IMG/VR virus record: IMGVR_UViG_3300037882_003690
Location: 1-24,103 of that record
Reading direction: 5' to 3' (one strand)
Source: a virus
DNA: 24,103 bases
Shown: piece by piece, positions 8,876 to 21,645 of the stretch
Layout: every line of letters begins with the position of its first letter
Numbering within the stretch: position 1 is the stretch's first letter
Notes under the pieces: generated by a model
What the model saw: the letters and a program-made list of their open reading frames with translations, nothing else
What the model was told of the DNA's origin: nothing
Database searches by the model: none
Position numbers and translations under genes: made by a program

Positions 8876-10312
8876 ATGCAAATTCAGCTAAACGATTCGT
8901 CCCCTATCGTAAACTTCCCTATTGCAGATATAAAAATAACACCAGAACGCCAACGCAAACAAGCAGCGCCTGACGACATGCTAATCGAAAGCATCCGCAC
9001 ATCAGGTCTTCTCCAGCCTATAATCATAAAAGAAGATGGCACGCTGATCGCAGGCGAGCGCCGATACCTCGCTCACCGTCAGCTTGGCCGCGAAACAATT
9101 CTTGCTCGGATATTCGAGAAACTTTCTCCAGTAAACGCTTTCCTTGTCGAGCTCCATGAAAACCTTGCCCGCAAGCAGCTGACTTGGCAGGAAGAAACAA
9201 AAGCGGTAGGCAGCTTTCACAACTTGCAAGCTGTTGCTAAAAAAGGCTGGCTGATAAAAGAAACAGCTGAACTTATTGGTTTGTCCCAGACAAAAACTGG
9301 ACAATATCTTGCCATCCACAAAGAGGCTCAGATTGACGAAGAAATCTATCGTTGCGGCACAATGCAAGCCGCAGTTAACTACCTTGAAAACAAAGCCTTG
9401 CGCAATATTGCTGCAGCTACGTCTCGCGGCCTGCTTGCTGAAAAAGTAATTCGGGCGGTTCATGGTGATCCCAGCCTCACCACCGCTGCCCTGCTATCTA
9501 GCATACAAAACAAGACCTTGGCACAACTTGGCGACGAAACTATGCCAAGCATTCTTGAGCAGGGAAAACTCGCCGAGACCTTGCTGCAAAATGCAAAGAA
9601 AGAGCAGCAGCCTGTAACTAACTTGGGAAAAAACGAAGCTATCTGTGCGAATTTTACCGACTGGGCAGCTGGCTACACCGGCCCTTCTTTTGACGTGATC
9701 CACTGCGACTTTCCCTACGGCAAAAACTACACCGGATCAAATACCAGCCCCGCAGCCATCTTACAAAAGAACGAAGTATATGCGGACACTGCCGACATCT
9801 TCAAAAACTTGCTTTTTGCTTTCCTCTTACAGCAAGACCGCTTTGTCGCACCTATTGCTCATTGCCTCTTCTGGTTTGACATGTCCTACTACTCCTACAC
9901 TATAGCGCAATTCGAAGCTGCGGGCTGGACAACCGTTCAACCCTTCCCACTTATCTGGACAAAAGGTTATAGCGGAGTAGCTGCCGACACCAAGCGCCGT
10001 CCGCGCCATTGCTACGAGACTGCTTTGCTTTTTTCACGAGGGGATAGAAAGATTGTCAAACTAACCAATGACCATTTCTCTTGCAATTCTAAGGAAGAAA
10101 ACCTGCACACAAGTCAAAAACCTGTCCCTATGCTCGAACACTTTTTGCAGCTCCTTATCGACGAGCACACCAATTTTCTTGATCCCACTTGTGGCAGCGG
10201 AAGCTCCCTAGTCGCCGCCCGCAAGCTAAACGCGGCCAGCTTTCTCGGCATTGAGCTGGAACAAACAAATGCAGACATTGCTAATTTCCTCCTGCAGAAA
10301 AAAGCCGCATAA
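8876..10312 (+). CDS. ParB-domain / DNA methyltransferase fusion
   Basis: 478 residues, AGGAAA upstream of the ATG. N-terminal ParB/Srx-like domain: SGLLQPIIIKEDGTLIAGER begins at 43 and runs into RYLAHRQLG, then ELHENLARKQLTWQEE (92-107) and a helix-turn-helix-like segment (IKETAELIGLSQTKTGQYL, 127-145). From about 255 a beta-class amino-methyltransferase follows: motif IV HCDFPYG (276-282), QKPVPMLEH (414-422) and the AdoMet-binding FLDPTCGSGS (434-443). Motif IV reads DFPY rather than DPPY. Such enzymes methylate adenine N6 or cytosine N4 using AdoMet. The ParB part probably gives DNA targeting, or NTP-dependent clamping as in some ParB proteins. A likely role is marking phage DNA against host restriction or for regulation. 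No matching restriction enzyme lies beside it. Confidence 0.85.
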   Translation: MQIQLNDSSPIVNFPIADIKITPERQRKQAAPDDMLIESIRTSGLLQPIIIKEDGTLIAGERRYLAHRQLGRETILARIFEKLSPVNAFLVELHENLARKQLTWQEETKAVGSFHNLQAVAKKGWLIKETAELIGLSQTKTGQYLAIHKEAQIDEEIYRCGTMQAAVNYLENKALRNIAAATSRGLLAEKVIRAVHGDPSLTTAALLSSIQNKTLAQLGDETMPSILEQGKLAETLLQNAKKEQQPVTNLGKNEAICANFTDWAAGYTGPSFDVIHCDFPYGKNYTGSNTSPAAILQKNEVYADTADIFKNLLFAFLLQQDRFVAPIAHCLFWFDMSYYSYTIAQFEAAGWTTVQPFPLIWTKGYSGVAADTKRRPRHCYETALLFSRGDRKIVKLTNDHFSCNSKEENLHTSQKPVPMLEHFLQLLIDEHTNFLDPTCGSGSSLVAARKLNAASFLGIELEQTNADIANFLLQKKAA

Positions 10313-10314
10313 CT

Positions 10315-11370
10315 ATGTTTTGCGAACCAGAACAACCCCGCAAAGACGGGCAGAAAGTTTTGCTATTATCTGACGCCCCGACTGACACCGACTTAGTTGA
10401 AAACAGGCTGCACTCAGACCACGCGGGGCATTTGCTAAAGCATGAGATAATACTTGCAAAAGATTTTGACATATCCAGCTGCTACTATGGAAGCATCCTA
10501 TCCCAGCCGCTGCCTTACGGGGGCCTCACCTCTTGCACCGTTACAAAGACGGAAATGAAAAAGCTAGGCCACGAACTTCTTGGCAACCCTATAAACAAAC
10601 GCTATTTACTGCCAGCTTATCGGCAGGACGTGGCCGCAGCTCTTGCCGCTATTCAAAAACTTGCCCCGAACCTTATCATCGCACTTGGCAGCCTACCCTT
10701 ATGGGCAATCACAGGCGAAAGCCGCATAACCATGTTTCGCGGCAACTTTATGGAAACTGCTTATGGAATGGCAATAGCCACTCACGCACCATTATCTGTC
10801 CATAAAGAGTATAACCTGCGCCCCTTTGTCTGGGCCGATCTTGCAAAGGCTGAAAAATACCTGAACAAAACTCTGCCTCCAAACGTCGCCCGCAGAGCCT
10901 ACATAAATCCTACATGGGCCGAGCTTCAGGCAGTTTACACCCACTTTCTTGCAAACCCGACAGCCCTACTCGGCGTCGATATTGAAACCGCACCTAGCAT
11001 TGGTCAGATAACTTGTATCGGATTTGCAACAGAAAGTCTAGGTATTTGCCTACCCTTTTGGAACAAGGCAAACGGCAAGCCTTTTAACCCAACACCTGAG
11101 GCAGAGCTGCGCATGTGGCGCTGGGCCGAAAAGTTTGCCAACCTTCCGAACCCTAAAGTAATGCAAAACGGATTATACGATATGCAATACTTGCTGGACG
11201 CCCCTATTCCCATCCGTTGCCGCAACGTAACTGATGACACCGCAATTCTCCAGCACGCTCTCCAACCGGAAATGCTAAAGAGCCTCGGCACTCTTTCCAG
11301 CTTCTACCTTAACGAGCCAAGCTGGAAGCAAATGCGCGAGTCCGACAAAGAAAGCAAAAAGGACGATTAA
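10315..11370 (+). CDS. N-terminal part of a split family A DNA polymerase: UDG-like plus 3'-5' exonuclease (Exo I-II)
   Basis: 351 residues. Residues about 14-180 resemble a uracil-DNA-glycosylase-fold domain found at the N terminus of SPO1-type phage polymerases: VLLLSDAPTDTD (15-26), PNLIIALGSLPLWAITG (118-134), FRGNF (141-145) and THAPLSVHK (156-164). From about 215 comes a DEDD exonuclease: Exo I LLGVDIETA (Asp222, Glu224) and Exo II VMQNGLYDMQYL (Asp289), followed by LKSLGTLSSFYL. It then ends in a lysine/aspartate-rich tail. The third exonuclease motif (Y-x3-D) and the whole polymerase domain are in the next gene, one base downstream. Whether the UDG-like domain keeps glycosylase activity cannot be judged; the catalytic region looks diverged. 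Start: ATG 3 nt after the methyltransferase stop, required to include the first UDG motif. Confidence 0.82.
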   Translation: MFCEPEQPRKDGQKVLLLSDAPTDTDLVENRLHSDHAGHLLKHEIILAKDFDISSCYYGSILSQPLPYGGLTSCTVTKTEMKKLGHELLGNPINKRYLLPAYRQDVAAALAAIQKLAPNLIIALGSLPLWAITGESRITMFRGNFMETAYGMAIATHAPLSVHKEYNLRPFVWADLAKAEKYLNKTLPPNVARRAYINPTWAELQAVYTHFLANPTALLGVDIETAPSIGQITCIGFATESLGICLPFWNKANGKPFNPTPEAELRMWRWAEKFANLPNPKVMQNGLYDMQYLLDAPIPIRCRNVTDDTAILQHALQPEMLKSLGTLSSFYLNEPSWKQMRESDKESKKDD

Positions 11371-11371
11371 C

Positions 11372-12856
11372 ATGCCTTACATAGATTTTACAGGGGAAGC
11401 CCCCGCCCGCCCCGATCCGTTTGAAACTTACCAGCTATACAACTTGCTGGACTGCTTCATAACTGCGCAACTTGTGCCACCAATGCGCAGCCAGCTTGAC
11501 GAAAGCACAGCCGCAGTCTATCAGAGGGAAATGCGTGTCCAGCAACTTTGCCTTGAAATGTCCTCAACAGGGTTTCCAATAAACAAAGAAGCCGTTGCCG
11601 AATTAACCTTCTCCCTTACCAAGAACATCAACAAGGCCACCAATCGCCTTACGCAATGGTGCGAAGCCGTCGGCTATCCCGCGCTCAACGAGAACTCGCC
11701 TAAGCAGGTTGCCGACTTTTTCTACAGCTTTCTAAAACTACCTCCCATTAACAAATGGGATTTCGCTACTCGCAGCCGCAAGATTGTAACCGATGCAAAA
11801 GCCCTTGAGTCTCTTGCCTCCAGCTATATAATCGCCGCACCCTTTGTCAACGCTATTCTAAGCATTCGAGAAAGCCGAAAGATGCTTTCCGTGTTTAACC
11901 GAGGACTGGAACCAAACGGCAACCTGCGTTGCACATTCAGCCCTTCTGGCACAGATACCGGGAGGCTTAGCTCGCAATCCAACCCTTACAAACGCGGGAC
12001 AAACGCGCAAAACATTACCGACTACCTCCGCCATGTTATTGAAGCCCCTCCAGGTTTCCTAATCCTAAACTTTGATCTTAAAACAGCCGAAAGTATCGCA
12101 GTCGGCTTTCTATCCCAAAGTCCCAAATACATCGATGCCTGCTATTCAGGTGATATCCACACCTACGCTGCAAAGGAAGTCTGGCCGAAACAGCCTTGGA
12201 CTGGAGACTTGCGCCTAGACAAAGCAATAGCAGAAAATCCCTGCTATCGCCATTTCTCTTTTCGCGACCTCGCCAAAAGGGGCGGGCATGGCACCAACTA
12301 CTATGGCAAGCCTCCTAATGTTGCAAAGCACCTTGGCGTGCCGACACCTCTTGTTGCCGACTTTCAAGCCAGCTATTTTGCAGCTTTTCCTGAAATACCA
12401 ACTTGGCACTTGCGCGTAATAGCTGAAATCCAAACAACAGGTCAGCTAACCACACCGCTTGCCCGCAAGCGCACTTTCTGGGGCCGATCTGGCGATGCCA
12501 GCACCCACCGCAAAGCTATTGCGTTTGGGCCACAATCCCTTGTCGCAGACACTTGGAACGAGGCGCTATACATTGCGCAAATGTGGCTGGTTGCCAACTA
12601 CCCTTCTATCCGTCTCTTAGCACAAGTCCACGACTCAGGCGTGTTTCTATTCCCAAAGCAACTCGTCCACAGCGTAGTTCCACTTTTACAAAAGCAATTA
12701 GAATACCCTATTGACTTTGGAAAACTAGGGGTTATGACCATCCCTACTGACGTCACCATAGGCCGCACTTGGAACAAGCTCCCAAAAGGCAATGCACCAA
12801 AACACCTCGCAGGTGGACAACGCCCTTACATTGCTGGAATGGATCTTAATTTGTGA
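11372..12856 (+). CDS. C-terminal part of a split family A DNA polymerase: Exo III motif plus polymerase domain
   Basis: 494 residues in a frame +1 to the preceding gene. The Exo III motif is YNLLDCFIT (Tyr23, Asp27), matching YAAED of E. coli Pol I. Polymerase motif A is NFDLKTAE (Asp235, Glu240). Motif B is RDLAKRGGHGTNYYG (Arg298, Lys302, Tyr310), with His306 where Pol I has Phe762. Motif C is QVHDS (His420, Asp421). Both catalytic aspartates are present, so it should be an active polymerase. A strong Shine-Dalgarno AAGGA (11359-11363) lies 8 nt before the ATG, inside the end of the previous gene, with only 1 nt between TAA and ATG. That supports separate, coupled translation and a two-subunit enzyme over a sequencing error. 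Substrate: template-directed dNTP addition for phage genome replication. Confidence 0.92.
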   Translation: MPYIDFTGEAPARPDPFETYQLYNLLDCFITAQLVPPMRSQLDESTAAVYQREMRVQQLCLEMSSTGFPINKEAVAELTFSLTKNINKATNRLTQWCEAVGYPALNENSPKQVADFFYSFLKLPPINKWDFATRSRKIVTDAKALESLASSYIIAAPFVNAILSIRESRKMLSVFNRGLEPNGNLRCTFSPSGTDTGRLSSQSNPYKRGTNAQNITDYLRHVIEAPPGFLILNFDLKTAESIAVGFLSQSPKYIDACYSGDIHTYAAKEVWPKQPWTGDLRLDKAIAENPCYRHFSFRDLAKRGGHGTNYYGKPPNVAKHLGVPTPLVADFQASYFAAFPEIPTWHLRVIAEIQTTGQLTTPLARKRTFWGRSGDASTHRKAIAFGPQSLVADTWNEALYIAQMWLVANYPSIRLLAQVHDSGVFLFPKQLVHSVVPLLQKQLEYPIDFGKLGVMTIPTDVTIGRTWNKLPKGNAPKHLAGGQRPYIAGMDLNL

Positions 12857-14064: not shown

Positions 14065-14478
14065 ATGCAGGAAAAAAGATTGGCAATTATAGAAAGCCCC
14101 TACGCAGGGGACGTGAAAAGGAACATAGCCTATGCAAAGCGAGCAATGCACGCCGCCTTGAACGAGGGCTATGCGCCAATCGCCTCGCACTTACTTTACA
14201 CCCTGCCGGGCATGCTTGACGATACAAATCCTGATGAGCGGGCGCTTGGCATTGAAGCGGGGTTAAGTTGGTATGCTGTTGCCGAAATTTGCCTAGTTTA
14301 CAGAGATTTAGGAATAACGCCCGGCATGCAAATGGGCATCGAACGAGCAAAGAAATGCGGCGTTCCCTGCCTATTTATTGGGATAGGGGCTTGTGCCAAA
14401 ACACACGTCAAACCCAGTAAGAAAATGGCCGGACGGGGGCATGAAAAAACCGCTAGGGGGGTAGGATCAAAAGACTAA
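14065..14478 (+). CDS. DUF7768-like protein (nucleoside 2-deoxyribosyltransferase fold)
   Basis: 137 residues; AGGAG 8 nt before the ATG. The sequence follows the phage DUF7768 (formerly DUF4406-type) pattern: AIIESPYAGDVKRNIAYAK (7-25), ALNEGYAPIASHLLYTLPGM (31-50), DERALGIEAGLSWY (57-70), VYRDLGITPGMQMGIERA (78-95), then a strand with CGVPCLF. This fold is related to nucleoside 2-deoxyribosyltransferases; some members act on nucleotides or sense them, so a role in nucleotide processing is possible but unproven. The last about 27 residues are basic and glycine-rich, and their codons lie in the bidirectional terminator stem (14450-14494), so the C-terminal tail is probably shaped by RNA structure. 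It is the last rightward gene. Confidence 0.72.
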   Translation: MQEKRLAIIESPYAGDVKRNIAYAKRAMHAALNEGYAPIASHLLYTLPGMLDDTNPDERALGIEAGLSWYAVAEICLVYRDLGITPGMQMGIERAKKCGVPCLFIGIGACAKTHVKPSKKMAGRGHEKTARGVGSKD

Positions 14479-15511: not shown

Positions 15512-18500
15512 TCACTCCTTAATAAAATCAGTATATTTTCTAACCAAATCATCTGGGTATTTATCAAAGTTATCACCTCCTTCTCTACGACTACGAGTAA
15601 GGCCGCTTTGTATAACAGCGGCGGGATCAATGCCTAACATGGTAGCCTTTTTCAAAACGTCAGTTGTATGCTGCCAATCCTGCGCGATTTGAGCTTGCGA
15701 ATATTCCATGCCCAAACCTTGCAATGTTTCTTTACGCTTATCCACTTGCACTTGCAACTCCCTTTGCGCAACTAAATTCCTTTCAATATCCACAGGGTTA
15801 AAACCTAAACCATAAAGCAGCCGATTTGCAGCACTTACATCTTGCACCGAGGCATACCCCGTTCGCATGCTCTTAATATACTGCCCTTCGGCACTGCTTA
15901 CAGCTCTTGCAATGGCCCTTGGTGCCAGCGCCGCAATTGCCTGATCGCGCAGGTTTTGGTTACTCATCGCCGCCATTCCAGTTGCATCACGATAAGCCTC
16001 TGCATCGTTCACCAGCTTTCCAATTTGCTTAGCTCTTTCCCAAAAGACAAAACTGCTGAGCTGTCTTACATCGTTTGCCACGTTAGTTCCTGGCAGTGTG
16101 GATGACCCTTGCAAGCTGGCGCCAAAAAACGCAGGCAGGCCAAAGTATGCAATATCAGCAGCCTTATTCCCGCTAACAGGGTCATCAACTCCTGCCAGAC
16201 TTTCATGCAGCCATTGAAAGGCCGTCGGCGACTCAGTTAAGTTACGGGCAAATCCGTCAGCAATGGGACGAATTGCTGTAGCGCCCAATCCGCCGAGCGC
16301 AGTGGCAGACAAGGTTTGCCAAAGCAGCGGGCCCCAGACACCTTCCTCCTTGCCCAGTTTAGCATACCGCACCATATTGCCCATAAAATGCATTTGCCAA
16401 TTCTTAAACAGGCCAAACTGGCTGCCAATCGGCCCCGTCATTATTCGTGCTCGATCACCTGTCGCATAGCCATAGTTTGTAACCTCAATGCTGCGTTTAA
16501 CAAAGCGAAAGAGCTGCTCATCCTTCAGCTTCAAATAACTTTCGCCAAGTTCAAACGCCATGTTTGCACTAACCATTCGCGCATACTGATCACTTTTCTC
16601 TGTCATAAAGGTTGACAGATGCGCAACAAACCTTAACGGCCCTTTGCTACGATACACCTCGGCCAAACTATCACCCACGTTCGCACTACTGCCAGCCCAA
16701 TCTTCATAAAGCTGCGGGTTCAAACTTCCATCTTGCGTCAGGCGCTTCAGCACTTCCGTATGTGAGGCACTTCGCTTTTCCACATGCATTTGTGAGAAGC
16801 CTTTGCCTAGCAACTTAAAATGATCGATAACTCCTACGCTGCCGCGAGCAAGCCCATCCGCACCCATTTTAGGAGTGAATTGCAAAATGCTGGCAAGGCG
16901 AGCGTCCGACGCGCCGCTTACTAAGGAAATAAACGGTAACATATTTTGCACAGGTGTGAGAATATTGAGCAGCGCATGCACTGGGTTTACAATGCCCAAC
17001 GTCCACAAGTGCAACGTAGCATTAGCAGTTCCGGCGATCTTGCTTGCAGCTCGCGGTCCTAAAGCGCCACCCAGCAACGGGGAAATTGTCTTATTCAGCC
17101 AGCTTGTCAATTCACCTTCCAGCCCTAAAGTCAGCCCCGCCTTCCTTACCAAATCGTCATACGCAGTCGGGTTGCTACCTTTTAACAGCAATGCCTCTTG
17201 TCCGAACCTGCTTTTCCACGTAACAAAACTGCTAAGCCGTAGCATTTGCTTGTAGTGATTACCTGTAGCTTCCATAACTTCTGCAAGAGAATACGCTGTG
17301 TTATCCGGCGATCCTGCCACACCTGTGCGCGCTTTTGCAAATCCAGGCCTGGACGTAGGAAGCCCCGCCGCACTTGTTGAAGCTAGCCTTCGCCTTTCAA
17401 TTTTGACAAGTGCGCTTTTAACCACATCTTGCTCGCTTTTATTGTTTGTCATATACTCGGTAAGCATCTCGCTAATTTCATCCATAGTGGTGGCGTTTTT
17501 ATCGCCCAGCTTACTTTTAATCCCAAAACTTTCTACCGGGCCTACTTTCCAGCTAAGCCCTGTATCCTTACCCACAGTCTCCACAATCTCTCTTGCCTGA
17601 TCTTGCGCGGACTTTCCAGTAACACCAGATGCCAAATACTTCAAATTTCCAGCAGCATCTTCTACCCGTGCTTGAAAACTTCCTTTGAACAATCTGGGCA
17701 TGATATACCCATCCAGCCACTGGAACTCGTCTGTAAGCCCTGCAGCTTCTAACGAAGGCTTTACATACTTTTCCATAACTCTTGCGTTTATGGCTTGCAA
17801 CCCTTTGACAGCTTCTTTCACCGTATCGCCAATTTCAGCACTTCCAAGCAGCTTGCCTAAATCTTCTGCAGGTGTTTGCGTCTGCGCCGCAAGTGCAACC
17901 ATTTGCCTATCCGCATCGCCCAGACTTTCCCACAAGTTTTTAACACTATCGAGTTCGTCAATACCTTTGCCCCGAACAACGCCTTTTCCCACGATAGTTC
18001 CACCCAACGGGCCAATGCTATCGATTTTCCCATACATCAGCTCTTGGGCCAACTCATCAGCTTTACTCATGCCCGCTTTCAGCAACGCATGCATGCGGCC
18101 AAATCCAATATCAGCACTTTCCTTAAATTGAGTTGGCTTTAACACATCGGCCATGCTATCAGCCATTCGAGCAAGCACTTCGCTATCCACTCCACCTATC
18201 GTTGTCTTAAACCGCTCTGCAAGTTTGCCTGCAACCATTTCCTTCATTTGAGCTTTGTTATACTTGCGGCTAGTATGCCAATCTATTGGGTTAAACACAG
18301 CTTGCACTTCATCATAAAGCTGATTAAAGACATCGCCCGAACCCAGCTTTCGCAATGGTTCCCTCAGTTTTGCCCACTGTTCCACATTCGCCGAATATAG
18401 TTTTTCTGCTTCGGGTGCCAGCTTTTTCAAATTATCTGTCTTGCCAATAACCCACAAATCCTTGTTGCCTATAGCTGCTTCCCCATACTTGCGTGTTTTG

Positions 18501-19792
18501 GGCGCAGCACTCAACCTCTTTAAGAAAACCAACAGACCGTCTTTTTCCTGCCCAACTAGCAGCCCCGGCGCTACTTGCTTAAAAGCATCGCCGCTGCCTT
18601 CTAGCGTTTTAGCAAAATCTGCGGCAAAGCGTGGGGACTTGAGTTGAATTGCACGCGCATACACCACGTTAGAAAGCATCTCATCCGCAGTATCAAACCC
18701 AAGCATATTGGCAAATTGTGCTTGCTGGCCAGCATTAACAGTGCGCAAGTCAGTTTCCGCGCCTTCCGTCAGCAGCTTTATTTCACGAGCTGCCGCGCCT
18801 TTGCCGCCTTTAGGCGTAGGCCGAAACAAGCTATTTAACAGGTTGTCTAACTTTGGAGTGGCATTTTCCACAGGCTGGACAAAGCGGTTAATAACTGCGC
18901 CGCCGAGACGCTGCTTCATACCGGGTAAACCTTCCAGAGCCTCTTTGCGCAATCCATCTAAATAAACCGCTTTGTCCATGTTACCGACAAATACAGCTTC
19001 TGGTGCCAACGCGGCGCGCAGCTTAAAAGAAGGCAGTAAGCCAAACTCTTCCCCGATAACTCCGCCCCAGCTAGTTTTTGTCACCTGCCCACTGCTGCGA
19101 AAAAACCCACCTATCGCTCCGCCTACGCCCGCTATTGTGGTATTCACTGCCACATCGCTCAGCAGGTTTCCAAAATTTTCTGGATAGAGTGTATAGCCTG
19201 TTCCTAAACGCGCAGCTTCCAGCGGCGAATACCGCAAAATCTCTTTAACAAACTGCGTGCGAATAGGCGCAGTTGCGGCAGACTCTGCTCCAAGCATTCC
19301 AGCAATGCGCGCTGTCCCGGCCTCAAGCACAGTCGCAGCTTTTGCCATTCTGCTGACCTTAAACGCCGCCCCGTAAACGCCGCCCGGTCCGAGCAACTGG
19401 CTGGCTAGTCCCAAGTCAGGACGAGCTGCTCGAAAAGCCGCGACGTTGGGAGACACCGACGCGCCAAACAGCTCTGTTATTGAGGAACCAGTGCTGCCAA
19501 TGAATTGCGCAACTGGGTTATCGAACGCACTCCGCCAGCCAAAGGGGTCCGCCGTTATGGCCTCCGCCTGTGCTTTTTGAGCCATTTCAATTTGGCCCAT
19601 TAAAGTAGAGCCGGTTGCGACGTCGAGAGAAGAGGGCAAGGGTTGCGGCTGTTGCTGAGGTTGCTGCTGCTGCGGTCGGCCTGTGCGCAACTCCTCTTTC
19701 AGCCGCTGCGGATCAAATTCAGACTGCTTGCTTTGAATTTCTGCACGCAGTCTGGCTGGATCAAAGCCGCCAAATGCCCTAGTTTTCTCCAT
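15512..19792 (-). CDS. large internal virion / DNA-ejection protein (gp16-like), 1426 aa
   Basis: 1426 residues, ATG with GGAAAG upstream, 2 nt after the transglycosylase gene. The N terminus has repeated basic/acidic helices and a Gln/Pro-rich stretch (about 38-54). The rest is mostly helical and Ala/Leu/Lys-rich. Two hydrophobic stretches stand out: around 930-960 (IVNPVHALLNILTPVQNMLPF) broken by prolines, and around 1150-1180 (LLWQTLSATALGGLGATAI). Between them, around 1060-1120, are MTEKSDQYARMVSANMAF and IGSQFGLFKNWQMHF, features I associate with very large podovirus internal proteins. By size and position after gp13-, gp14- and transglycosylase-like genes it corresponds to T7 gp16, which enters the host envelope with the DNA. 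I see no enzymatic domain in it; the lytic domain is in the neighbour. Confidence 0.7.
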   Translation of the reverse strand: MEKTRAFGGFDPARLRAEIQSKQSEFDPQRLKEELRTGRPQQQQPQQQPQPLPSSLDVATGSTLMGQIEMAQKAQAEAITADPFGWRSAFDNPVAQFIGSTGSSITELFGASVSPNVAAFRAARPDLGLASQLLGPGGVYGAAFKVSRMAKAATVLEAGTARIAGMLGAESAATAPIRTQFVKEILRYSPLEAARLGTGYTLYPENFGNLLSDVAVNTTIAGVGGAIGGFFRSSGQVTKTSWGGVIGEEFGLLPSFKLRAALAPEAVFVGNMDKAVYLDGLRKEALEGLPGMKQRLGGAVINRFVQPVENATPKLDNLLNSLFRPTPKGGKGAAAREIKLLTEGAETDLRTVNAGQQAQFANMLGFDTADEMLSNVVYARAIQLKSPRFAADFAKTLEGSGDAFKQVAPGLLVGQEKDGLLVFLKRLSAAPKTRKYGEAAIGNKDLWVIGKTDNLKKLAPEAEKLYSANVEQWAKLREPLRKLGSGDVFNQLYDEVQAVFNPIDWHTSRKYNKAQMKEMVAGKLAERFKTTIGGVDSEVLARMADSMADVLKPTQFKESADIGFGRMHALLKAGMSKADELAQELMYGKIDSIGPLGGTIVGKGVVRGKGIDELDSVKNLWESLGDADRQMVALAAQTQTPAEDLGKLLGSAEIGDTVKEAVKGLQAINARVMEKYVKPSLEAAGLTDEFQWLDGYIMPRLFKGSFQARVEDAAGNLKYLASGVTGKSAQDQAREIVETVGKDTGLSWKVGPVESFGIKSKLGDKNATTMDEISEMLTEYMTNNKSEQDVVKSALVKIERRRLASTSAAGLPTSRPGFAKARTGVAGSPDNTAYSLAEVMEATGNHYKQMLRLSSFVTWKSRFGQEALLLKGSNPTAYDDLVRKAGLTLGLEGELTSWLNKTISPLLGGALGPRAASKIAGTANATLHLWTLGIVNPVHALLNILTPVQNMLPFISLVSGASDARLASILQFTPKMGADGLARGSVGVIDHFKLLGKGFSQMHVEKRSASHTEVLKRLTQDGSLNPQLYEDWAGSSANVGDSLAEVYRSKGPLRFVAHLSTFMTEKSDQYARMVSANMAFELGESYLKLKDEQLFRFVKRSIEVTNYGYATGDRARIMTGPIGSQFGLFKNWQMHFMGNMVRYAKLGKEEGVWGPLLWQTLSATALGGLGATAIRPIADGFARNLTESPTAFQWLHESLAGVDDPVSGNKAADIAYFGLPAFFGASLQGSSTLPGTNVANDVRQLSSFVFWERAKQIGKLVNDAEAYRDATGMAAMSNQNLRDQAIAALAPRAIARAVSSAEGQYIKSMRTGYASVQDVSAANRLLYGLGFNPVDIERNLVAQRELQVQVDKRKETLQGLGMEYSQAQIAQDWQHTTDVLKKATMLGIDPAAVIQSGLTRSRREGGDNFDKYPDDLVRKYTDFIKE

Positions 19793-19794
19793 AA

Positions 19795-21645
19795 CTATTG
19801 TCTTTCCGTAACCGTAGTATCGCCTGACCGCGTTTTAGTGCTGGTGGTTTTGCCGTTAAACCTATCTGCTTGATGCATGGCTTGCAGCGTTTCCTTATAC
19901 GCATCAAGCCGTTTGTTCGCCTCTTCTGCATTTGGCTTGCTAAGTTCTTCTAGCGCCACCAGTGTCAGCTTACTTTGCACAGCACTACTATACTCTTTCG
20001 AACCCATCGTATGCCCAAGCTTCTGCGCTTCGGTGGAGGCAAGACTTACTGCAGCATCGTAACGCTCTTGTCCTAAAATTGCAGGTAGAGCTCCTTTCTG
20101 CACTGCTTCGCCTACTTGCCACACGCGGCTGGCCGTTACTGCTTCTACCTGCGCGCCCTCAGCCATAGAATTTTCACCAGCAGCTGCCGCTACAAACTGC
20201 GCCCGCACTACCTCGTTTGCCATGTTAGTAACCTGACCCGCTGATTGGAATTGCGCAGAGGCTTTAGTCCCTTCTACCTGCGCTTGTTGCATTGCTATTT
20301 GCGCATCAATCAGCGGGTTAAGTGGCGTAAATTTAGTGGCCAGCTTGCCGTCAACTTCGGAAGTAGTAACCATATAATTACCTTGCACAGACTGACTGTT
20401 GTTCTTAATAAAACGCTGATACTTTTGCGCAAATGTCTTATCGTTATATGCGGCCAACTGGCCAGCTTCTGCATTCGCTTCTGCAAAAGCCTGCTCGGCC
20501 TTGGCCTCTTCATTTTGCATAAGGGCTACTTTATACTGAGCCATTTTGGCATCGTAGGCATCAAGCCGTGCTTGCACTTCCTGCGAGCCTGCCGCTTTCC
20601 CTGCCAGCATTCCCGCACCTACCTGTGCAAGGACAGTGCCCAGACCTGCGCCCTCAGGTATGCGGGCAAGTCCTGCAGCAATACCTTGGAAAAGCGCCGC
20701 TCGTTCCACACGTTGTCCGGTAAAGGCGTCCAGCTCTTCCGGTGCAAGCTCTTGCAGCATTGCATCGGTTTTGCTAAAATCACGTTTGGGCAACGCAACA
20801 GGTGCAGGAAGCACCGGTTCATCCGCTAGTGGTGACGACACTGTAAACGGCGTTTTCATAGCCTTGCCAGCAGCAGCAATCGCTTGCTCTTGCCCTTGCC
20901 AAAAGTTGGCATCGTAAGGCGCAGCAAACTGCGGTGTGCCGTCCGGGTTGTTGACTCCCCCAGGTTTTAGTCCTAAGTAGGCTTTAACACGAGCGACATA
21001 GGCTCTTGTGTCAGGTCCGCGCTTACCATTGGTCCCTGCAATATACTGGGCAATAGCTTCAGTCGGGTCGCCGGGTGTTTGTTTCATTCCAGGCATAAGG
21101 TGAATAAGTGCCGCCTTGGCTGCACTCACAGGATCAGCATAAGCGTCCACTCCATGCTGTTGCATGAAAGTGGCGCGAGTAGAAGGAATAAACTGATACG
21201 GAGTGTAAGCTCCGGCAGAGCTTCGCAACCCGTGATTGCTTCTCTCTCCCGCCAGTCTAATTCCGCGCACAACGGCGATATAGTCCTGACCCAGACCTAG
21301 CTGCCGCGCAGCAATCTGCTCAGCCTGATCATAAACAGGATCGGCGTAGCTTTTTGCCCATTGCAGCTTGCTGCCGCCAACAGCCTGTCCATCGGCAAGA
21401 CTTTTCTCATACAGCGGGTTGGTTCTAGGTTGCGGAGCCTGCCGATCATCAACAAAAGGCACTACAGACTTTTTCTTAGCTTGTGGTTTGAAAAGCTGCT
21501 CCACTGTTTGCGGTTCCATTTCCACGCGGCCCGGCATCTGAAACGGCGCAGCAGTCTGGGGAGGATTTTTAAGCAGCAGCGAACCCGGCTGCCCACTATT
21601 TGCTGCCTGCAATCTTGCCAGCATTTCTTCGAAAGGATTGTTCAT
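19795..21645 (-). CDS. internal virion protein with lytic transglycosylase domain (gp15/gp16-like)
   Basis: 616 residues, strong Shine-Dalgarno (TGGAGGT) before the ATG. Residues about 105-230 form a soluble lytic transglycosylase (goose-lysozyme-like) domain: GIRLAGERSNHG with Glu134 as catalytic acid, SSAGAYTPYQFIPSTRATF (142-160), and AIAQYIAGTNGKRGPDTRAY for the later helices. The N-terminal 100 residues are Pro/Gln-rich. After about 300 the protein is Ala/Gln/Glu-rich and helical, as expected for a subunit of an internal core or ejection tube. The domain cleaves peptidoglycan glycan strands so that the ejection machinery can cross the cell wall at infection. In T7 this activity is in gp16, the last and largest protein; here it is in the middle one. 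Stop and next ATG are 2 nt apart. Confidence 0.85.
   Translation of the reverse strand: MNNPFEEMLARLQAANSGQPGSLLLKNPPQTAAPFQMPGRVEMEPQTVEQLFKPQAKKKSVVPFVDDRQAPQPRTNPLYEKSLADGQAVGGSKLQWAKSYADPVYDQAEQIAARQLGLGQDYIAVVRGIRLAGERSNHGLRSSAGAYTPYQFIPSTRATFMQQHGVDAYADPVSAAKAALIHLMPGMKQTPGDPTEAIAQYIAGTNGKRGPDTRAYVARVKAYLGLKPGGVNNPDGTPQFAAPYDANFWQGQEQAIAAAGKAMKTPFTVSSPLADEPVLPAPVALPKRDFSKTDAMLQELAPEELDAFTGQRVERAALFQGIAAGLARIPEGAGLGTVLAQVGAGMLAGKAAGSQEVQARLDAYDAKMAQYKVALMQNEEAKAEQAFAEANAEAGQLAAYNDKTFAQKYQRFIKNNSQSVQGNYMVTTSEVDGKLATKFTPLNPLIDAQIAMQQAQVEGTKASAQFQSAGQVTNMANEVVRAQFVAAAAGENSMAEGAQVEAVTASRVWQVGEAVQKGALPAILGQERYDAAVSLASTEAQKLGHTMGSKEYSSAVQSKLTLVALEELSKPNAEEANKRLDAYKETLQAMHQADRFNGKTTSTKTRSGDTTVTERQ

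Follow-up and report, generated by a model that had tools for sequence, protein, structure and literature searches.

A family A phage DNA polymerase divided within its exonuclease domain, very probably a two-subunit proofreading enzyme

Can a DNA polymerase proofread when the residues of its exonuclease site are encoded by two separate genes? The question is raised by a pair of genes in the 24,103 bases of virus record IMGVR_UViG_3300037882_003690 that were analysed here (the window). Genes 1 and 2 lie head to tail, with a single nucleotide between the TAA of the first and the ATG of the second, and gene 2 is read in the +1 frame relative to gene 1. Both match the DNA polymerase profile phrog_17, in adjoining stretches (positions 476-796 for gene 1 and 802-1235 for gene 2), and gene 2 matches the Pfam family DNA_pol_A (PF00476; 4.3e-31); judged by these sequence matches, the assignment of the pair to the family A polymerases is beyond chance. 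The gene 1 protein has no match in Pfam or NCBIfam. In our analysis the two halves very probably join into one family A polymerase of two subunits, the proofreading site of which would be completed in trans, because more than 150 relatives share this cut and have all catalytic residues intact.

The original prediction, drawn from the letters of the window and a list of its open reading frames (ORFs), had placed exonuclease motifs Exo I and Exo II in the first gene, and Exo III with polymerase motifs A, B and C in the second. Alignment with fused phage polymerases distributes the motifs of both genes in the same way. The AlphaFold model of the gene 1 product alone has a predicted local distance difference test score (pLDDT) of 91.5; its residues 194-351 align to residues 329-494 of the Klenow fragment of E. 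coli Pol I (Z 12.6), and the alignment ends just short of the Exo III residues of that enzyme, Tyr497 and Asp501. With the fused-polymerase alignment and the gene 1 model in agreement, the motif assignment is right. Single-chain proofreading enzymes of the Pol I type carry all three exonuclease motifs on the same polypeptide; here Exo III is encoded by the following gene, and the complete DEDDy set (D, E, D and Y-x3-D) is obtained once the residues of both chains are pooled. The signals reported around the break are also present, namely a Shine-Dalgarno-like AAGGA 8 nt before the gene 2 ATG, a start 1 nt past the previous stop, and a charged tail (ESDKESKKDD) on the first protein. Comparison with intact proteins of SPO1-like phages had been proposed for locating the break: fused phage polymerases do confirm its position, but the choice of SPO1-like phages was only partly apt, as the nearest fused relatives (Mel-JY34, ctMlz233 and the IMG/VR locus L045) belong to another phage group.

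The same break occurs in at least 187 loci, or at least 157 after identical ones are dropped. These totals are lower bounds from profile (alignment) scans, two of which took in no more than 80 loci each; the profile scans found many relatives, single-protein scans of viral contigs few. The loci comprise uncultivated phage contigs, five contigs of bacterial metagenome-assembled genomes (MAGs), and one isolate, Caulobacter phage Kuura. The closest IMG/VR relatives found are 43-57% identical to the window proteins and broken at the identical place, with gaps of -4, 10, 15, 31, 202, 283 and 313 nt, the 283-nt gap (locus L005) holding a 90-aa ORF. Over the 157 loci the junction has a median length of 491 nt, with extremes of -4 and 2793 nt. 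In 142 of them it measures at least 100 nt (100-2793 nt) and mostly contains unrelated genes; 221 ORFs in 115 sequence clusters were found within these junctions, and 11 of the gaps of 100 nt or more hold no ORF of 40 aa under the rule applied. By eye, the products of the junction ORFs include nucleoside-deoxyribosyltransferase-like, DUF3310-like and HNH-like proteins. A DUF7768 (nucleoside deoxyribosyltransferase-like) gene is located downstream in the window at 14065-14478, and look-alike proteins are encoded between the polymerase halves of several relatives. On either side of the break the split relatives resemble one another: their exonuclease proteins carry a charged C-terminal tail, most commonly ending in K-x-D/E-D/E, and many of their polymerase proteins start with a new N-terminus, M-P/R/K-x-I-x-T, where fused relatives have a short loop (WKDEGK...YN in several). 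A single intact gene was looked for in close relatives and did not appear; no locus found within the split clade has a fused gene, and every one of the few fused loci falls outside it. That the split looks settled, as had been suggested, is therefore strongly supported by 157 loci alike, the absence of a fused member among those found in the clade, and the unrelated genes in most junctions.

These comparisons also decide between the simpler accounts of the break. A sequencing or assembly indel within a single-gene polymerase would at first sight suit the window, where the gap is merely 1 nt, no stop interrupts the gene 2 frame in the 90 nt or so upstream of its ATG, and a single indel could fuse the frames. 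Yet the break recurs in 157 loci with differing gaps and intervening genes, and both of its sides hold conserved sequence absent from fused relatives (the charged tail and the new N-terminus), so that this account has practically no chance of being correct; on the sequence evidence the split is neither an error nor an isolated mutation. It is also very unlikely, if slightly less so, that the frames are joined in expression by a programmed frameshift, readthrough, a group I intron or a split intein. Splits that involve an intron or an intein have precedents, proposed or demonstrated, among phage and archaeal polymerases (PMC10580990, PMC4104785), and in one relative, L006, the halves are in phase across one TAG. 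Such schemes nevertheless fail to fit, because in 142 of the 157 loci the halves are separated by at least 100 nt that mostly hold unrelated genes, and the frame relation varies across relatives. The 1-nt gap of the window leaves no room for an intron; the roughly 14 aa after the last conserved WK and 22 aa before the Exo III Tyr are too few for a split intein; and no candidate slippery site is common to the relatives. Frameshifting by +1 at the TAA was likewise weighed and rejected: the AAGGA serves gene 2, and nothing similar is common to the relatives.

More serious, though still improbable, is the alternative that proofreading was lost, the polymerase subunit working alone without an exonuclease while the protein with the uracil-DNA glycosylase (UDG) and exonuclease domains has another job or decays. 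Detached domains can lose their function, and the UDG-like domain of the window has indeed lost its motifs. Residues 1-186 of the gene 1 model match the family 4 uracil-DNA glycosylase 1ui1 (Z 18.8), so the fold is there, but the GEAPG and HP motifs of active family 4 enzymes are not. There is no Pfam UDG match for the window protein, against 44 of 47 members of the alignment, and the close relatives L005-L007 retain GEAPG and HP. The window domain is probably a dead glycosylase kept for structure. Among the 137 paired loci with good coverage, the first-motif Gly of the UDG site is found in 104 and the second-motif His in 100, while the exonuclease D, E and D of gene 1 and the Y and D of gene 2 are kept in all 137, as is the motif A Asp. 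An exonuclease domain without a job would be expected to resemble the decaying UDG domain; its residues are invariant where the UDG motifs vary, which argues that it is not jobless, and exonuclease function appears to be retained as far as sequence can tell. Moreover, lost proofreading gives the Exo III residues no reason to persist in the polymerase gene.

A structural model of the joined halves points the same way. In L006, reading the TAG as Gln joins the two proteins by QEHRGH, and this chain was modelled with AlphaFold from 31 rows, most of them from other loci whose frames had been joined likewise, each stop being taken as Gln; these joined frames replaced a mixed alignment, which was rejected as its exonuclease rows were misaligned against polymerase rows. 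The model (pLDDT 87.1; predicted template modelling score 0.84) has a disordered joint and a confident Exo III helix. Its best match in the PDB is Klenow (Foldseek 1.3e-27), and residues 200-869 align with Klenow residues 329-928 (1kfs) over 558 residues spanning both parts (VIA-align Z 32.1). A Klenow-like fold with polymerase and exonuclease domains is thus predicted for the tethered chain of a relative, not for that of the window. Per usable column, inter-chain covariation is highest or nearly so between the N-terminal 45 positions of the polymerase protein and the exonuclease domain; among the top 100 covarying pairs, four link the first 12 polymerase positions to exonuclease positions 190-215, where about 0.2 would be expected. 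This signal for a contact between the polymerase N-terminus and the exonuclease is suggestive only. The original prediction had left two outcomes, a site built from two chains or the loss of proofreading; because none of the 137 pairs departs from the five catalytic residues and the two modelled parts together reproduce the Klenow fold, we favour the former and disfavour the latter.

On this view a single replicative polymerase of family A (Pol I type) would be built from the products of both genes. Subunit 1 would combine an N-terminal UDG-like domain with an RNase H-like exonuclease core containing Exo I (D222, E224) and Exo II (D289), and in subunit 2 a short strand and the Exo III helix (Y23, D27) would come first, ahead of the thumb, palm and fingers. 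Docking of that helix into subunit 1 would complete the metal site while keeping the exonuclease domain next to the polymerase domain. Several points weigh against such an assembly: the long intervening genes in relatives mean that no fixed ratio of the halves is required; the L006 model is a tethered chain of a relative in which docking is partly imposed, and since the tether helps docking it speaks for compatibility and is not proof of association; and the covariation is modest, was partly examined post hoc, and comes from an effective number of sequences (Neff) of about 90. A variant that we consider possible but rather doubtful treats proofreading as a separable module, the polymerase subunit replicating without the UDG-exonuclease protein, docking of the Exo III helix turning proofreading on, and the subunit ratio (the genes often being non-adjacent) setting fidelity.

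When did the two halves part? In a maximum likelihood tree built by a quick method from 87 rows of the polymerase part (support by the Shimodaira-Hasegawa-like approximate likelihood ratio test, SH-aLRT), 68 of 69 split representatives fall together in a single clade (SH-aLRT 100), which is itself embedded among fused polymerases. The adjoining group contains the fused ctMlz233, Mel-JY34 and L045, ctMlz233 and Mel-JY34 being in the sister group, and polymerases split elsewhere, those of VS-ABTNL-3 and L046; long branches limit the trust to be placed in deeper nodes. The best explanation is a split ancestral to a large, almost wholly uncultivated phage clade: a single cut at the base of the clade, in the loop that leads from the last helices of the exonuclease core to Exo III, would have been retained ever since. 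A MAG contig from Pseudomonadota (L057, 5698-8635) is split near the same place yet groups with the fused L014 and L050, apparently an independent second origin. Two polymerase genes of the clade carry insertions. That of L016:6485-8743, about 300 aa with a LAGLIDADG-like domain (Pfam PF14528, 1.4e-05), is probably a homing endonuclease or intein lodged in the polymerase domain; the 812-aa product of L119:5237-7672 has a large insertion without Pfam match, a possible intein. In L209 (1727-4364; MW202554, ctLwi270) two ORFs, the first of about 420 aa, are both annotated as DNA polymerase.

The features of the locus are collected in Table 1. A ParB/DNA methyltransferase-like gene also precedes the polymerase in split relatives and in some fused ones, and the gene downstream of the pair encodes a DUF3987 (primase/helicase-like) protein; the order methyltransferase, polymerase, DUF3987 is common to Mel-JY34 (fused gene), the window and L005 (split pairs). 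Farther on (15512-21645) the minus strand has very long ORFs of 1426 aa (no Pfam match) and 616 aa (SLT-like transglycosylase domain), the products of which are possibly internal virion proteins.

Table 1. Features of the divided polymerase locus in the window
Feature	Position	Strand	Evidence
Gene upstream of the polymerase pair, ParB N-terminal domain fused to DNA methyltransferase	8876-10312		domain matches
Gene 1, UDG-like + 3'-5' exonuclease subunit, Exo I and Exo II only, 351 aa, ATG start	10315..11370	+	ORF; phrog_17 positions 476-796; AlphaFold pLDDT 91.5
UDG-like domain, gene 1 aa 1-186, degenerate motifs (SDAPT for GEAPG, HAP for HP)	10315..10872	+	fold match; motif columns
Exonuclease domain without its Exo III helix, gene 1 aa 194-351	10894..11367	+	aligns to Klenow 329-494
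Exo I, D222 and E224, gene 1	10978..10986	+	alignment with relatives
Exo II, D289, gene 1	11179..11181	+	alignment with relatives
Charged C-terminal tail ESDKESKKDD, gene 1	11338..11367	+	end disordered in model, residues 347-351 pLDDT <50
Shine-Dalgarno-like AAGGA, 8 nt 5' of gene 2 ATG	11359..11363	+	sequence
Gene 2, Exo III helix + family A polymerase subunit, 494 aa, ATG start	11372..12856	+	ORF; Pfam DNA_pol_A 4.3e-31
Exo III, Y23-x3-D27, gene 2	11438..11452	+	alignment; helix in model of relative
Motif A Asp D235, gene 2	12074..12076	+	alignment with relatives
Motif B R298, K302, H306, Y310, gene 2	12263..12301	+	alignment with relatives
Motif C H420, D421, gene 2	12629..12634	+	alignment with relatives

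If true, a two-protein proofreading site that a widespread phage clade has preserved across deep divergence would be a natural test of exonuclease-polymerase coupling, and a ready two-part enzyme to which proofreading might be added or from which it might be omitted. Standard annotation misses the exonuclease half, which has no Pfam or NCBIfam match in the window and is called 'hypothetical protein' in Kuura.

Split phage polymerases are already known (PMC2988022, PMC10580990, PMC10684548); in the open-access literature we found descriptions of other kinds of split and none of a polymerase broken at this point. A Pol I type exonuclease without polymerase is known from the metagenomic stand-alone enzyme ExnV1 (7r0t), but its counterparts of Klenow Asp355, Asp424, Asp501 and Tyr497 are all in one chain, and its authors consider it the product of a truncated gene (PMC9629493). 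PolB3 of Methanobacteriales is likewise a replicative polymerase from a split gene, but it is an archaeal family B enzyme, and its split is thought to stem from intein excision (PMC4104785, citing Kelman 1999). In the T4-like Aeromonas phages 25 and 44RR the replicative polymerase is divided into gp43A and gp43B, and the halves from phage 25 co-purify and are active (PMC2988022); these proteins are of family B, however, and an untranslated insert or a homing endonuclease gene separates the halves. Among family A enzymes, the Pol I domains of Bacillus phages are spread over ORFs by endonucleases (PMC10684548; compare Goe26), a division linked to endonuclease insertions, at break points that may differ from that between genes 1 and 2. 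The polymerases of OM43 phages MEP401 and MEP402 (PMC10580990), Vibrio phage VS-ABTNL-3 and L046 also occupy two ORFs, but they are broken inside the polymerase domain, with the exonuclease in the first ORF, whereas the polymerase domain of the window is whole in gene 2. The only isolate with the same split among the loci found, Caulobacter phage Kuura (OQ067476), has its exonuclease (Kuura_029) and polymerase (Kuura_026) genes separated by two small genes rather than by 1 nt, and the main text of the Kuura paper does not mention an exonuclease (PMC9959647). The fused exonuclease-polymerases of ctMlz233, Microcystis phage Mel-JY34 and Desulfofustis phage LS06 have the same domain order and a similar gene neighbourhood, but each is a single gene in which a short loop takes the place of the tail and new N-terminus. 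In predicted fold and in exonuclease and polymerase motifs, finally, the window proteins are like the Klenow fragment of E. coli Pol I (1kfs), which is one chain, while that of the window is cut between Klenow residue 494 and Tyr497.
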